From contig JACPNZ010000041.1 of assembly GCA_016185245.1 (NCBI GenBank), positions 1-64,000 on the forward strand: 64,000 nt of DNA. Reading direction: 5' to 3'. The position numbers and the translations under genes are program-made. Positions 25,771 to 31,254 of the stretch are shown in pieces (within the stretch, counting starts at the first letter, position 1; each line of letters starts with the position of its first letter). The stretch is from Hyphomicrobiales bacterium (GTDB taxonomy: Bacteria; Pseudomonadota; Alphaproteobacteria; Rhizobiales; Aestuariivirgaceae). The notes beneath the pieces are model-generated. The model was not told the DNA's origin and did no database searches. It saw only the letters and a list, made by a program, of their open reading frames with translations.

Positions 25771-27171
25771 CTACATGTGAATGACGCGGCCATAGGCATC
25801 GAGGACGCTCTCGTGCATCATCTCCGAGAGGGTGGGATGCGGGAAGACCGTGTGCATCAGCTCCTCTTCGGTGGTCTCCAGTCCCATGGCAATGACGAAG
25901 CCCTGGATCAGCTCGGTCACCTCGGCTCCCACCATATGGGCGCCGACGAGCCTGCCGGTCTTGGCATCGAAGATCGTTTTGATCAGGCCCTGGTCCTCGC
26001 CCAAGGCAATGGCCTTGCCATTGCCGAGGAAAGGAAAGCGGCCGATCCGTACTTCGCGCCCGGCCGCCTTGGCCCTCGCCTCGGTGAGACCGACGCTTGC
26101 CACCTGCGGGTGGCAATAGGTGCAGCCGGGGATGTGCTCCTTGTTCATCGGATGAGCATCGAGGCCCTTGATCTTTTCCACACAGATGACGCCCTCGTGC
26201 TCGGCCTTGTGGGCGAGCATGGGAGGGCCGGCGACATCGCCGATGGCGTAAATGCCGGGAACATTGGTGCGGGCGAAGCCATCGGTGAGGATGCAGCCCT
26301 TCTCGGTCTTGACCCCCAGAGCCTCGAGGCCAAGGTTCTCGATATTGCCCTGGACACCGACCGCCGAGATGACGCGGTCGACTGTGATCGTTTCGGTCTT
26401 GCCACCCTGTTCGATCGTCGCGGTGACGTTGTCGGCGCCCTTCTGGAGCTTCGTGACCTTGGCGCCCGTCCTGATCTTGAGGCCCTGCTTTTCCAGCTGC
26501 CTCTGGGCGATCCTGGCGATCTCGGCATCCTCCACCGGCATGATCTGGTCGACGATCGAGGCGAACTCGATGCCGATGGCGCCGGAGCCCACAACCAGCA
26601 GCGATTTCGGCATGGCCGGCGGCACCATCGCCTCGAAATAAGTCCAGATGAGCTTGCCGTCGGGCTCGAGGCCGGGGAGCACCCGGGGGCGGGCGCCGGT
26701 GGCAATGATCACATGCTTTGCCGTGTAGGCGCCGGGGCCCATGGTCCCCTTGGGCTCGGGATGCTGGGGCAGCATCGGCGATTTGAGCGGCTTCGATACG
26801 ACGACCGTGCCGGGCTTCGACAGCGTCGCCTCACCCCAGATGATAGTGACCTTGTTCTTCTTGAGGAGGCCGTTGACCCCCATGTTGAGCCGGCCCGAGA
26901 CACCGCGCGAGCGCTGCACCACGGCGGCTGCATCGAAAGACACATTGTCGGCCTTGAGGCCGTAGTTCGACGCATGCTTCATGTAGTGGTAGATTTCGGC
27001 CGAGCGTAAGAGCGCCTTGGTGGGGATGCAGCCCCAGTTGAGGCAAATGCCGCCCAGATGCTCGCGCTCGACGATCCCTACCTTGAAGCCCAGTTGTGCC
27101 GCCCTGATCGCCGTCACATAGCCGCCGGGGCCGGAGCCGATGATCAGGATGTCGAATTGCGTGTCGGACAT
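25771..27171 (-). CDS. lpdA: Dihydrolipoyl dehydrogenase
   Basis: A 466-residue FAD-dependent E3 component that reoxidises dihydrolipoyl groups with NAD. The FAD-binding motif is IIGSGPGGYVTAIRAAQLG, the redox disulfide is C43-x4-C48 (GGICLNWGCIPTKAL), and the C-terminal active-site histidine lies in TVFPHPTLSEMMHE. It is part of the pyruvate dehydrogenase cluster, downstream of pdhC and the SGNH hydrolase gene. Confidence 0.96.
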   Translation of the reverse strand: MSDTQFDILIIGSGPGGYVTAIRAAQLGFKVGIVEREHLGGICLNWGCIPTKALLRSAEIYHYMKHASNYGLKADNVSFDAAAVVQRSRGVSGRLNMGVNGLLKKNKVTIIWGEATLSKPGTVVVSKPLKSPMLPQHPEPKGTMGPGAYTAKHVIIATGARPRVLPGLEPDGKLIWTYFEAMVPPAMPKSLLVVGSGAIGIEFASIVDQIMPVEDAEIARIAQRQLEKQGLKIRTGAKVTKLQKGADNVTATIEQGGKTETITVDRVISAVGVQGNIENLGLEALGVKTEKGCILTDGFARTNVPGIYAIGDVAGPPMLAHKAEHEGVICVEKIKGLDAHPMNKEHIPGCTYCHPQVASVGLTEARAKAAGREVRIGRFPFLGNGKAIALGEDQGLIKTIFDAKTGRLVGAHMVGAEVTELIQGFVIAMGLETTEEELMHTVFPHPTLSEMMHESVLDAYGRVIHM

Positions 27172-27190: not shown

Positions 27191-27250
27191 GGCGAATGGG
27201 GAGTGGCGAATGGCGAGTGGGGTTCCCCAATTCGCCATTCGCTATTCGCC
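27191..27250. repeat. Imperfect inverted repeat at the SGNH gene end
   Basis: GGCGAATGGCGAGTGGG (27205-27221) is nearly complementary to CCCAATTCGCCATTCGC (27226-27243) with a short loop. The left part also repeats GGCGAATGG/GAGTGGCGAATGG in tandem. The repeat supplies the stop codon and last codons of the SGNH hydrolase gene (the tag at 27242-27244 on the minus strand). The GAATGGCGAGTGG motif is a type of dispersed repeat often seen in rhizobial intergenic DNA. It could act as an mRNA 3' stabiliser or attenuator between the two genes. Confidence 0.6.
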
Positions 27251-28189: not shown

Positions 28190-29515
28190 CTACACCAGCA
28201 TCAGTCCCGGTTCTTCGATGTAAGCCTTGAAGGCATTGATGAGTTCAGCGCCCAAGGCGCCGTCGACGCAGCGGTGGTCGGTGGAGAGGGTGACACTCAT
28301 CTGCTGCTCGATGACGATTTCCTGGCCACGTACCACCGGGCGGCGCTCGCCCATGCCGACGGCGAGGATCGAGGCGTGCGGCGGATTGATGACGGCGGCG
28401 AAATTCCTGATCTGCATCATGCCGAGGTTGGAGACCGCGGTCGAGCCGCCGGTATATTCCTCGGGCTTCAATTTGCGCACCCTGGCGCGGGCCGCATAGT
28501 CCTTCATCTCGGTTGATATCTGGGCCAGGCCCTTGGTCTCGACCTTGCGGACTACGGGCGTGATGAGGCCGCCGGGGATCGACACGGCAACGCCTACGTC
28601 GGCATATTTGTGCTTAACCATCGCCGTATCGGTCCACGAGACATTGGCTTCCGGCACCTTGATCAGGGCCATGCCCAGGGCCTTGATAATGAAGTCGTTG
28701 ACCGAGACCTTCCACAGGGCCTTGCCGTCCTTGTCCTTGGGCGCCTGCAAATTGAGGCGCTCGCGCAGATCGAGGAGCTTCTCCAGGACTATGTCGACGG
28801 TCAGATAGAAATGCGGAATGGTCTGCTTCGATTCCATCAGCCGGCGGGCGATCACCTTGCGCATGGTGTCGTGCGGCACGAGATCATAGGACCCGGGTTC
28901 GAAGAGTTTTAGCACCGCGTCGTCTGACGGCCCCCCTCCGGCGCTGCGCGCCACCTCCCCCACCTTCGGGGGAGAGGATGTTAGCGCGAGCGGCTTGGCG
29001 GTCTCCACATCCTTGAGAACGATGCGGCCATGGGGGCCGGAGCCCTTGAGGGCGGCGAGATCGAGGCCCTTTTCCTTGGCCACGCGGCGGGCGAGAGGGG
29101 AGGCGAAGAGGCGCGCGCCGTTCCCCCCTCCGGCTCCGCTGCGCGGAGCCACCTCCCCCGCCTTCGGGGGGGAGGATGACGTGGGTGCAGCACTTCCCTT
29201 ATCCTCCCCCTTCACGGGGGAGGTGGCGCGAAGCGCCGGAGGGGGAACTGCCTTGATATCCGCTGCCGTCTCGCCTTCGCCGAGAATGACAGCGATGGGC
29301 GTGTTGACGGCCACGTCGTCGGTGCCGTCGGCCACCAGAATTTTTCCCAGCGTGCCCTCGTCGACCGCTTCAACTTCCATGGTCGCCTTATCGGTCTCGA
29401 TCTCGGCCAGGATGTCGCCGGATTTGACCTTGTCGCCTTCCTTCTTGAGCCACTTGGCGAGCTTGCCCTTCTCCATGGTGGGAGAGAGAGCGGGCATCAG
29501 GATGTTGACGGGCAT
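28190..29515 (-). CDS. pdhC: Pyruvate dehydrogenase E2, dihydrolipoamide acetyltransferase
   Basis: A 441-residue E2 core component. The N-terminal lipoyl domain has the lipoylated K43 ([11 protein letters not shown]). A flexible linker follows, then the E3-binding domain ([28 protein letters not shown]) and the catalytic acetyltransferase domain ending in H414 of [10 protein letters not shown]. Both linkers contain in-frame copies of a palindromic repeat (28931-28979, 29123-29177 and 29202-29245). I start at the ATG at 29515, giving the normal N-terminus [17 protein letters not shown]. It follows pdhB and the DUF5076 gene. Confidence 0.96.
28931..28979. repeat. In-frame palindromic repeat in pdhC, second linker
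   Basis: CCCCTCCGGCGCTGCGCGCC followed by ACCTCCCCCACCTTCGGGGG forms two adjacent short hairpins. It encodes the low-complexity peptide [18 protein letters not shown] on the minus strand, in the linker between the E3-binding and catalytic domains of E2. Same repeat family as four other copies in this window. Confidence 0.85.
29123..29177. repeat. In-frame palindromic repeat in pdhC, first linker, copy A
   Basis: CCCCTCCGGCTCCGCTGCGC with GGAGCCACCTCCCCCGCC and a G-run forms two hairpins. On the minus strand it encodes [18 protein letters not shown] in the lipoyl-to-E3BD linker. It faces copy B, which lies 24 bases away in the opposite orientation. Confidence 0.85.
29202..29245. repeat. In-frame palindromic repeat in pdhC, first linker, copy B (inverted)
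   Basis: TCCTCCCCCTTCACGGGGGA then GGTGGCGCGAAGCGCCGGAG: the same repeat family in inverted orientation to copy A. On the minus strand it encodes [19 protein letters not shown] nearly identical unit sits at the corresponding place in pdhB. Confidence 0.85.
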
Positions 29516-29534
29516 GGGCGAGTCCCTTGCGTGA

Positions 29535-29879
29535 TTACGACGTCTTGCCGATGGCCGAAAGCTGGCCGGCGATCTTGCCGAGGTCTTCGTTGAGCTGCTT
29601 GCGGATGGCAGCGAAATTCTCCGCCGCCTTGCCGTGGCCCATCTCTTCGCAGGAAGCCGCCACCTGCTGGGCCATGGCGGCCAGCACATGGCCCCAGACC
29701 TCGGGCTTGCCGAAGGCCATGGCGTTGAGCGACAGGCTCAGGCCCCCGTTGGTGATCCAGGCCCTCGCCACCTCGCCGGCCTTGGGGTCGTGGAACACCT
29801 CATGCGGCGGCTGCAATTGGTGCGGATGGGTCTCGTGGCTGTGGTCGTGGTGGTGATGGCCGCGATCGTGGTCAGACAT
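29535..29879 (-). CDS. DUF5076 family protein, His-rich N-terminus
   Basis: A 114-residue protein starting with a histidine-rich segment ([20 protein letters not shown]) followed by a helical domain ending [20 protein letters not shown]. The latter matches, from memory, the DUF5076 family, which is found next to pyruvate dehydrogenase genes in alphaproteobacteria. The start overlaps the pdhB stop by 8 bases and pdhC follows 19 bases later, so it is translated within the pdh operon. The histidine cluster could bind zinc or nickel. Biochemical role unknown. Confidence 0.8.
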
Positions 29880-31254
29880 AGAGCACTCCCTTGGCGGCCG
29901 CCACGACTTCGTCGGCGTTGGGCAGCGCCAGCTTCTCGAGATTGGCGGCATAGGGCATGGGAACGTCCTTGCCGGCGACGCGGGCAACGGGTGCGTCGAG
30001 CCAGTCGAAAGCGTGGGTCATCACCTGGGCGGCGATCTCCGAAGTGACGGAGAATTGCGGGAAACCCTCCTCGACCGCCACGCAGCGGTTGGTCTTCTTC
30101 ACGCTCTCCACCACCGTGGCGATATCCATGGGGCGGATGGTGCGGAGATCGATCACTTCGGCTTCGATCCCTTCGGCGGCGAGTTTTTCGGCCGCGGCGA
30201 GCGCATAGGTCATGCCGATGCCGAAGGCGACGATGGTCACATCCTTGCCGGCGCGGGCCACCCGCGCCTTGCCGATCGGCACCACCCAGTCGTCGAGCTT
30301 CGGCACCTCGAAGCTCTTGCCGTAGAGGATTTCGTTCTCGAGGAAGATAACCGGATTGGGATCGCGGATCGCCGCCTTCATCAGGCCCTTCGCGTCGGCC
30401 GCCGAATAGGGCATCACCACCTTGAGGCCGGGAATTTGCGCATACCAGGCGGCATAGTCCTGGCTGTGCTGGGCGGCGACGCGGGCGGCCGCCCCATTGG
30501 GTCCGCGGAAGACGATGGGGCAGCCCATCTGGCCGCCCGACATGTAGAGCGTCTTGGCGGCCGAGTTGATAATGTGGTCCATCGCCTGCATGGCGAAGTT
30601 GAAGGTCATGAACTCGACGATGGGTCGGAGCCCGCCGAAGGCCGCTCCGACCGCGATGCCGGTAAAGCCATGCTCGGTGATCGGCGTGTCGACCACCCGC
30701 TCGGGGCCAAACTCGTCGAGCATGCCTTGCGAGATCTTGTAGGCGCCCTGGTACTGGCCGACCTCCTCGCCCATCAGGAAGACGTCCTTGTCGCGGCGCA
30801 TCTCTTCCACCATGGCCTCGCGGATCGCCTCGCGCACCGTCATCGACACCATCTCGGTGCCGGCGGGGATTTCGGGGTCGGTGGGAGTTGGACCCCCTCC
30901 GGCTCCGCTGCGCGAAGCCACCTCCCCCGCAAGGGGGGAGGATAGAGGAGGCGCCCCGCTTTTTTCCTCCCCCTTCACGGGGGAGGTGGCGCGCAGCGCT
31001 GGAGGGGATAGCGCATCGGCCTCGCCGATCACCGCGATCGGCGTGTTGACCTTCACGTTCTCGGTGCCTTCGGGGATGAGGATCGCGGTCAATGGGCCCT
31101 CGTCGACGGCTTCCACTTCCATGGTCGCCTTGTCGGTCTCGATCTCGGCGATGACGTCGCCGGACTTTACCGGGTCGCCGACTTTCTTGAGCCACTTGGC
31201 GATCTTGCCTTCTTCCATGGTCGGAGAAAGCGCCGGCATGAGGATGTTGGGCAT
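29872..31254 (-). CDS. pdhB: Pyruvate dehydrogenase E1 beta subunit with N-terminal lipoyl domain
   Basis: A 460-residue E1 beta. Residues 1-80 are a lipoyl domain with K42 ([11 protein letters not shown]), a feature of alphaproteobacterial PdhB. A linker of about 60 residues follows, largely made of palindromic-repeat peptide ([37 protein letters not shown]). The transketolase-type catalytic part starts near 136 ([17 protein letters not shown]) with VFLMGEEVG and the C-terminal domain ([11 protein letters not shown]). Forms the heterotetramer with PdhA. Overlaps the DUF5076 gene. Confidence 0.96.
30893..30943. repeat. In-frame palindromic repeat in pdhB linker, copy A
   Basis: CCCCCTCCGGCTCCGCTGCG then CGAAGCCACCTCCCCCGC and a G-run: two short hairpins, same family as in pdhC. 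On the minus strand it encodes [18 protein letters not shown] in the linker after the E1 beta lipoyl domain. It faces copy B 21 bases away. Confidence 0.85.
30965..31007. repeat. In-frame palindromic repeat in pdhB linker, copy B (inverted)
   Basis: TCCTCCCCCTTCACGGGGGA then GGTGGCGCGCAGCGCTGGAG. Near-identical to copy B in pdhC. On the minus strand it encodes [16 protein letters not shown]. The A/B pair in opposite orientation is the same arrangement as in pdhC. Confidence 0.85.

Follow-up and report, generated by a model that had tools for sequence, protein, structure and literature searches.

Five copies of one palindromic repeat are read in frame within the linkers of two pyruvate dehydrogenase (PDH) subunits, and in other species of the genus these linkers hold different repeat types, a recurrence that the initial annotation of this DNA had missed. 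The best explanation, which we regard as probable, is that a REP-like family repeatedly overwrites these sequence-tolerant linkers in the genus, filtered by frame and length. The five copies are members of a REP-like superfamily of short palindromes, often inverted pairs and mostly intergenic. Such elements would time and again have come to lie in, or written over, the disordered linkers through which PdhB and PdhC tether their lipoyl domain, and the surviving copies would be those leaving a near-normal linker length and a register that gives a Pro/Ser/Gly/Ala/Glu peptide.

Repeat copies in the linkers of PdhB and PdhC

The window, i.e. the whole analysed stretch of 64,000 nucleotides, is part of contig C38 of a 3.5 Mb draft genome in 58 contigs (G000). 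Coordinates, Pfam domains and pattern counts confirmed the proposal of the initial annotation that five copies of one palindromic family lie in frame in linkers of the two genes, two in pdhB and three in pdhC (Table 1), and the linker peptides that it had named are present in the PdhB and PdhC translations. On its own strand, the element consists of hairpin 1 (CCTCCCCC-loop-GGGGGAGG or a close variant), TG, hairpin 2 (GGCGC..GCGCC or longer) and a G-rich tail, GGAGGGG. An inverted pair, with the hairpins 1 facing each other, follows the lipoyl domain in PdhB and in PdhC, and the second pdhC linker, between the E3-binding and catalytic domains, holds one lone copy.

Table 1. PDH genes of the window and the repeat copies within them.
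Feature	Position	Strand	Basis
pdhC, dihydrolipoamide acetyltransferase (E2)	28190..29515	-	Pfam PF00364, PF02817, PF00198 (lipoyl, E3-binding, catalytic domains)
pdhB, pyruvate dehydrogenase E1 beta with N-terminal lipoyl domain	29872..31254	-	Pfam PF00364, PF02779, PF02780
Single repeat copy, second pdhC linker	28931..28978	-	pattern match and in-frame reading
Repeat copy B of inverted pair, first pdhC linker	29123..29176	-	pattern match and in-frame reading
Repeat copy A of inverted pair, first pdhC linker	29202..29245	+	translated from - strand
Repeat copy B of inverted pair, pdhB linker	30893..30942	-	pattern match and in-frame reading
Repeat copy A of inverted pair, pdhB linker	30965..31007	+	translated from - strand

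According to Pfam, the lipoyl, E3-binding and catalytic domains of PdhC span residues 5-77, 137-171 and 210-440, and in PdhB the lipoyl domain spans residues 4-76 and the transketolase domain starts at 138. From the coordinates, the repeats code for residues ~90-131 and ~180-195 of PdhC and ~83-121 of PdhB. An AlphaFold2 model of PdhC (17-row alignment) has a mean pLDDT of 75.8, with values below 50 at residues 89-136 and 176-193 only. Based on both the Pfam borders and these low-confidence segments, the PdhC copies sit in linkers between domains.

Compared with codon shuffles, the fold z was -5.4 for the pdhB linker and -3.9 for the first pdhC linker; that of the second pdhC linker, with its single copy, was not significant (-0.6). 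At gathering score, Rfam found two tRNAs across the window and nothing more. Between pdhB and pdhC lies a DUF5076 gene (PF16826, 29535-29879, - strand) with a His-rich start; the DNA behind one of its peptides matches part of the repeat at 82% over 22 nt, probably by chance. Elsewhere in the window, three GGCGAGTGGCGAATGG-like units (at most two mismatches, 0.12 expected) occur at 27198-27250, directly upstream of a lipoamide dehydrogenase-like gene at 25771-27171.

The repeat family in the genome and genus

A strict pattern gave nine matches in the G000 genome against none for a reversed-pattern control, in support of the earlier view that a family of DNA repeats occupies disordered linkers; five of the nine lie in PDH linkers. 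A looser 12-mer with one mismatch gave 56 matches (nine of them exact) versus 26 in the control. Across the genus, the strict pattern of repeat type t1 matched 98 times across 20 of the 37 genomes, versus 14 control matches in 12, and outside the genus there was no excess (14 matches versus 49 for the control in 24 genomes of other families). Types t2 and t3 occur in 30 and 33 of the 37 genus genomes, with zero and one control matches, respectively, and t4 in G002 and G020 only (2/37, one control match), where three of three and two of seven strict copies are inside pdh genes. In G001, t2 reaches 109 strict copies and no Y1 transposase was matched; several genus genomes have no copy of this type.

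Hairpin 2 differs in sequence from copy to copy but retains its pairing. When distinct inserts, chance matches included, were compared with half-swapped controls, perfect stems of up to 6 bp were formed by 30/56 for t1 (versus 6%), 8/20 for t2 (versus 14%), 5/36 for t3 (versus 1%), 7/10 for t5 (versus 12%) and 1/6 for t6 (versus 3%). The family is therefore REP-like in the general sense of many copies whose stem is kept through compensating changes.

The same repeat DNA is found between genes, on both strands. A codon-score test for clusters that are open and coding on both sides was passed by 10/15 pdh clusters, a sensitivity of about two thirds, versus 2/104 other clusters, which are places listed for a few genomes and not a random sample. 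One of these 104 is clearly intragenic: in G006, a DNA polymerase III alpha-like gene (L214:1-2052) carries an in-frame t1 repeat inside an HHH_6 match stretched over 120 residues. We take its product for DnaE2. The second cluster (L297) passed only weakly, and L201 was rejected as an intragenic copy, a stop preceding the element. Apart from those in pdh, nearly all of the copies sampled thus lie between genes.

RAYT as the mover of the repeats is not supported. PF01797 had eight matches, in 7/37 genus genomes, and at the seven of these eight places that were examined the hp1 motif was absent at the gene, with a single copy 1.1 kb off in G015; the arrangement expected of RAYT-driven REPs, with repeats on either side of a RAYT or Y1 transposase gene, was not found. 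In G000, a Y1 transposase that we take to be RAYT-like (L382:1372-2091, contig C11) has GTCACCGTAATT-like repeats beside it, which are distinct from the PDH-linker elements. MITEs are marked by terminal inverted repeats together with a target-site duplication; the repeat pairs have inverted arms, and neither an empty site nor a target-site duplication came to light, the latter being hard to judge where the old linker is replaced.

Among known systems, Rickettsia palindromic elements (~105-150 bp) are described as lying between genes and fused in frame in conserved proteins (PMC2229807, PMC10969869). The PDH-linker repeats are likewise found in intergenic DNA as well as in frame in coding sequence, which upholds the likeness in principle suggested by the initial annotation. 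They differ in belonging to another lineage, in the scarcity of intragenic copies among those sampled outside pdh, and in that their intragenic copies gather in homologous linkers of two PDH subunits, in several species and with different types. The resemblance would appear to be one of manner only.

GTAG- and CGTC-tagged REPs are short palindromes, often inverted dimers and mostly intergenic, with in-frame copies in genes, many of them for DNA synthesis and repair and DnaE2 included; the G006 copy fits this published list, and the part of the source available names no PDH gene among the REP-bearing genes (PMC3733652). The same text defines them by GTAG, CGTC, TGTC or CCTC at one end of an 8-9 bp stem, CGTC stems starting with A-T pairs. 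In contrast, t1-t4 have, by eye, neither a GTAG or CGTC end nor a stem starting with A-T, and no close link to RAYT-like genes is seen here. Copies of t1 begin with TCCTC, so that the tag alone is arguable, but their stems differ, and the type found in Beijerinckiaceae ends in CGTCTCGAA and may be CGTC-like. Other alphaproteobacterial palindromes include Br-REP1/2 of Bradyrhizobium, whose printed consensus differs by eye (PMC5082802), CIR of Caulobacter and Brucella, reported as not found intragenically (PMC2229807), and Bru-RS; the known context also takes in PMC2267715. Among the matches listed by a search of a partial literature collection, none dealt with palindromic repeats in PDH linkers.

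Distribution, length and register of the linker repeats

Full-length pdhC was obtained from 27 genus genomes, many of them drafts, and 11 of these carry repeats in their PDH linkers. Ten have hp1 hairpins, of type t1 (G000, G029), t2 (G015, G036), t3 (G034, G004, G011, G006) or t4 (G020, G002). The eleventh, G012, has a different palindrome, detected by an inverted-repeat test and known from its linker alone. No such repeat was found in the remaining 16 genomes, G009 and G005 being read for pdhC only; the pdhB linkers of these two and of G036 run off contigs and were left out. Linkers were extracted from domain borders, as regular expressions had lost 123 of them, and 15 extractions were left out. 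The hp1 motif was present in 20 of 480 linkers (80 from the genus, 400 from outside) versus a mean of 1.27 and a maximum of 4 in 200 codon-shuffled sets. This motif test was added because the inverted-repeat test, in which the pdhB linker of G000 stands out, missed the first pdhC linker of that genome and several outside loci.

On a tree of the catalytic domain, the linker trait requires six changes, three of them being forced by well supported branches, and is clustered (17/500 shuffles as low). G020, G002 and G036 form a 100/100 group in which the first pdhC linker is of type t2 in G036 and t4 in the two others. The catalytic DNA of G036 is 87% and 86% identical to that of G020 and G002, and its first pdhC linker 57% and 60%; however, a similarly low identity (61%) separates two plain linkers, those of G004 and G016, with 81% for catalytic DNA, so the evidence for a switch in G036 is the change of type and not the percent identity. 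The linker peptides are not common to relatives, as they would be if protein sequence had been conserved over diverged DNA, and the sister genomes G020 and G036 differ in the repeat type of their first pdhC linker; the reading of the initial annotation as a DNA repeat stands. We infer that the repeats arrived repeatedly and independently.

Outside the genus, 7/139 loci have PDH-linker repeats. The set comprises 79 named loci, taken as outside the genus, and 60 evenly sampled from the order, and the two may share species. Carriers are Mesorhizobium sp. AR07 (both genes), Mesorhizobium sp. M8A, Nitratireductor soli, a Beijerinckiaceae MAG, Rhodopseudomonas pentothenatexigens (L123) and an alphaproteobacterial MAG (L074), the last two counted on the hp1 motif alone, and G168, the only one among the 60 order loci. 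Four rows of the order sample were flagged, and one of them, flagged for a stop alone, was kept; second-linker hits in L338 and L381 showed no element by eye and were not counted. The pdhC linkers of L142 and L150, whose catalytic domain is off the contig, were read directly. Genome-wide, matching repeats number 177 in AR07, 92 in M8A, 33 in N. soli and 76 in the Beijerinckiaceae MAG, two of the latter being in its pdhC linker by position. Mesorhizobium erdmanii (66 copies) and Nitratireductor pacificus (59) have PDH linkers without the repeat.

Linkers with repeats are slightly longer. In the genus, the median for pdhB is 57 residues with (n=6) versus 46 without the repeat (n=18), and for the first pdhC linker 53.5 (n=8) versus 46 (n=19), with p about 0.001 each, kinship ignored. 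The longer swinging arm envisaged by the initial annotation thus holds for medians of +11 and +7.5 residues, but not as a simple lengthening, the effect being just modest and most of the repeat replacing old linker. A repeat pair codes for ~40 residues, yet linkers gain ~8-11; plain insertion would predict ~85 residues, a length that is absent. Since the gain is far below what the pair encodes, the repeat largely replaced the old linker, hence by replacement, or by insertion and then deletion, under a length limit; of these, replacement seems the better reading. Other families of the order have higher medians (59-60 for pdhB, 57-60.5 for the first pdhC linker) than these repeat-bearing linkers, though single pdhB repeat linkers reach 60 and 62 residues.

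One register (register 0, giving ...SPxxGE...) is used in 34/39 hairpin readings, or 33/37 without two overlapping second readings (G004, L142). Under our own grouping, it is used by 16/18 when one arm is taken per separate linker event (p = 2e-6), and it has a clear majority in 10/13 when each genome or sister group has one vote (p = 0.002). Stop codons were rejected as its cause, as free hairpins have stops in 47, 40 and 51 of 198 cases in registers 0, 1 and 2. Free elements are stop-free, depending on the frame, in 45 to 58 of 61 cases for t1, 19 to 34 of 34 for t2 and 12 to 20 of 21 for t3. The favoured register has the lowest share of Arg+Lys (0.13 versus 0.15 and 0.22) and the highest of Asp+Glu (0.11 versus 0.08 and 0.06), both modest differences. 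This strong bias, also missed by the initial annotation, points to protein-level selection too, which may have filtered the arriving copies.

Alternative explanations and significance

Several results weigh against repeated overwriting: linker repeats are scarce outside the genus, where t1 shows no excess either, the repeat-rich genomes of Mesorhizobium erdmanii and Nitratireductor pacificus have plain PDH linkers, and target-site duplications and empty sites are lacking among the results. Moreover, both the register bias and the reuse of the same linkers could stem from a small number of old insertions that conversion has since rewritten. On this account, which we consider rather unlikely, a few ancient in-frame insertions per linker were followed by concerted evolution, where free copies of the active type convert linker copies and keep their register and place. 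The dominance of one register, the restriction to the same linkers and the clustering of the trait on the tree agree with it, as does the fact that the G000 pairs in pdhB and pdhC have their own common hairpin-2 type, GGCT[C/T]CGCGCAGCGGAGCC, which the four remaining strict copies lack, and that the pairs in pdhB resemble those in pdhC in both G020 and G002. In G020, though, the spacers of free pairs begin much like those in the linkers. The account fits poorly with the lack of a repeat in 16/27 genomes and the six changes on the tree, with the prevalence of the same register in Mesorhizobium and Nitratireductor soli, and with the orientation of the pdhC pair, tail-to-tail in Mesorhizobium versus head-to-head in G000. 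Nor do the adjoining lipoyl domains show conversion, those of pdhB and pdhC staying apart and those of pdhC forming one group (100/99 support); the gene conversion between pdhB and pdhC linkers that the initial annotation had found plausible is unproven.

It is still less probable that the hairpin is kept for a role in mRNA or DNA, e.g. slowing ribosomes between the lipoyl and catalytic domains or tuning pdhB and pdhC levels. The predicted folds are very stable (-94 and -100 kcal/mol), and a hairpin 1 in pdhB shows a compensating difference between G020 and G002, both in favour of such a role. Nevertheless, the repeat was not found in 16/27 genus genomes and 132/139 other loci, and stems are also kept in free copies, so their conservation need not be local. 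That selection acts on the linker peptide as such, the DNA likeness having arisen by convergence, is hardly credible in spite of the dominant register, given the same DNA between genes on both strands and peptides that differ among relatives, and an assembly artefact, which a 58-contig draft might suggest, is equally implausible as the same situation recurs in other assemblies, including the complete genome of Mesorhizobium sp. AR07, on its chromosome.

We therefore retain repeated overwriting by a REP-like family. The initial interpretation was right in kind and is partly supported, with corrections as to the slight lengthening, the unproven conversion, and the recurrence with varied types and register bias.

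In-frame REPs are already known from Rickettsia and DnaE2, to which the PDH linkers add recurrence in core metabolism with varied types. More broadly, we lean towards seeing the lipoyl linkers as a recurrent landing site in the genus, where whichever palindromic family is active rewrites the linker within limits of length and register, so that mobile palindromes may keep supplying core metabolism with new disordered protein sequence. Related species with different repeat types in the same three linkers, and others without, provide a replicated natural experiment, a system for asking which length, charge and register a disordered linker requires, and how palindromes arrive in coding DNA.
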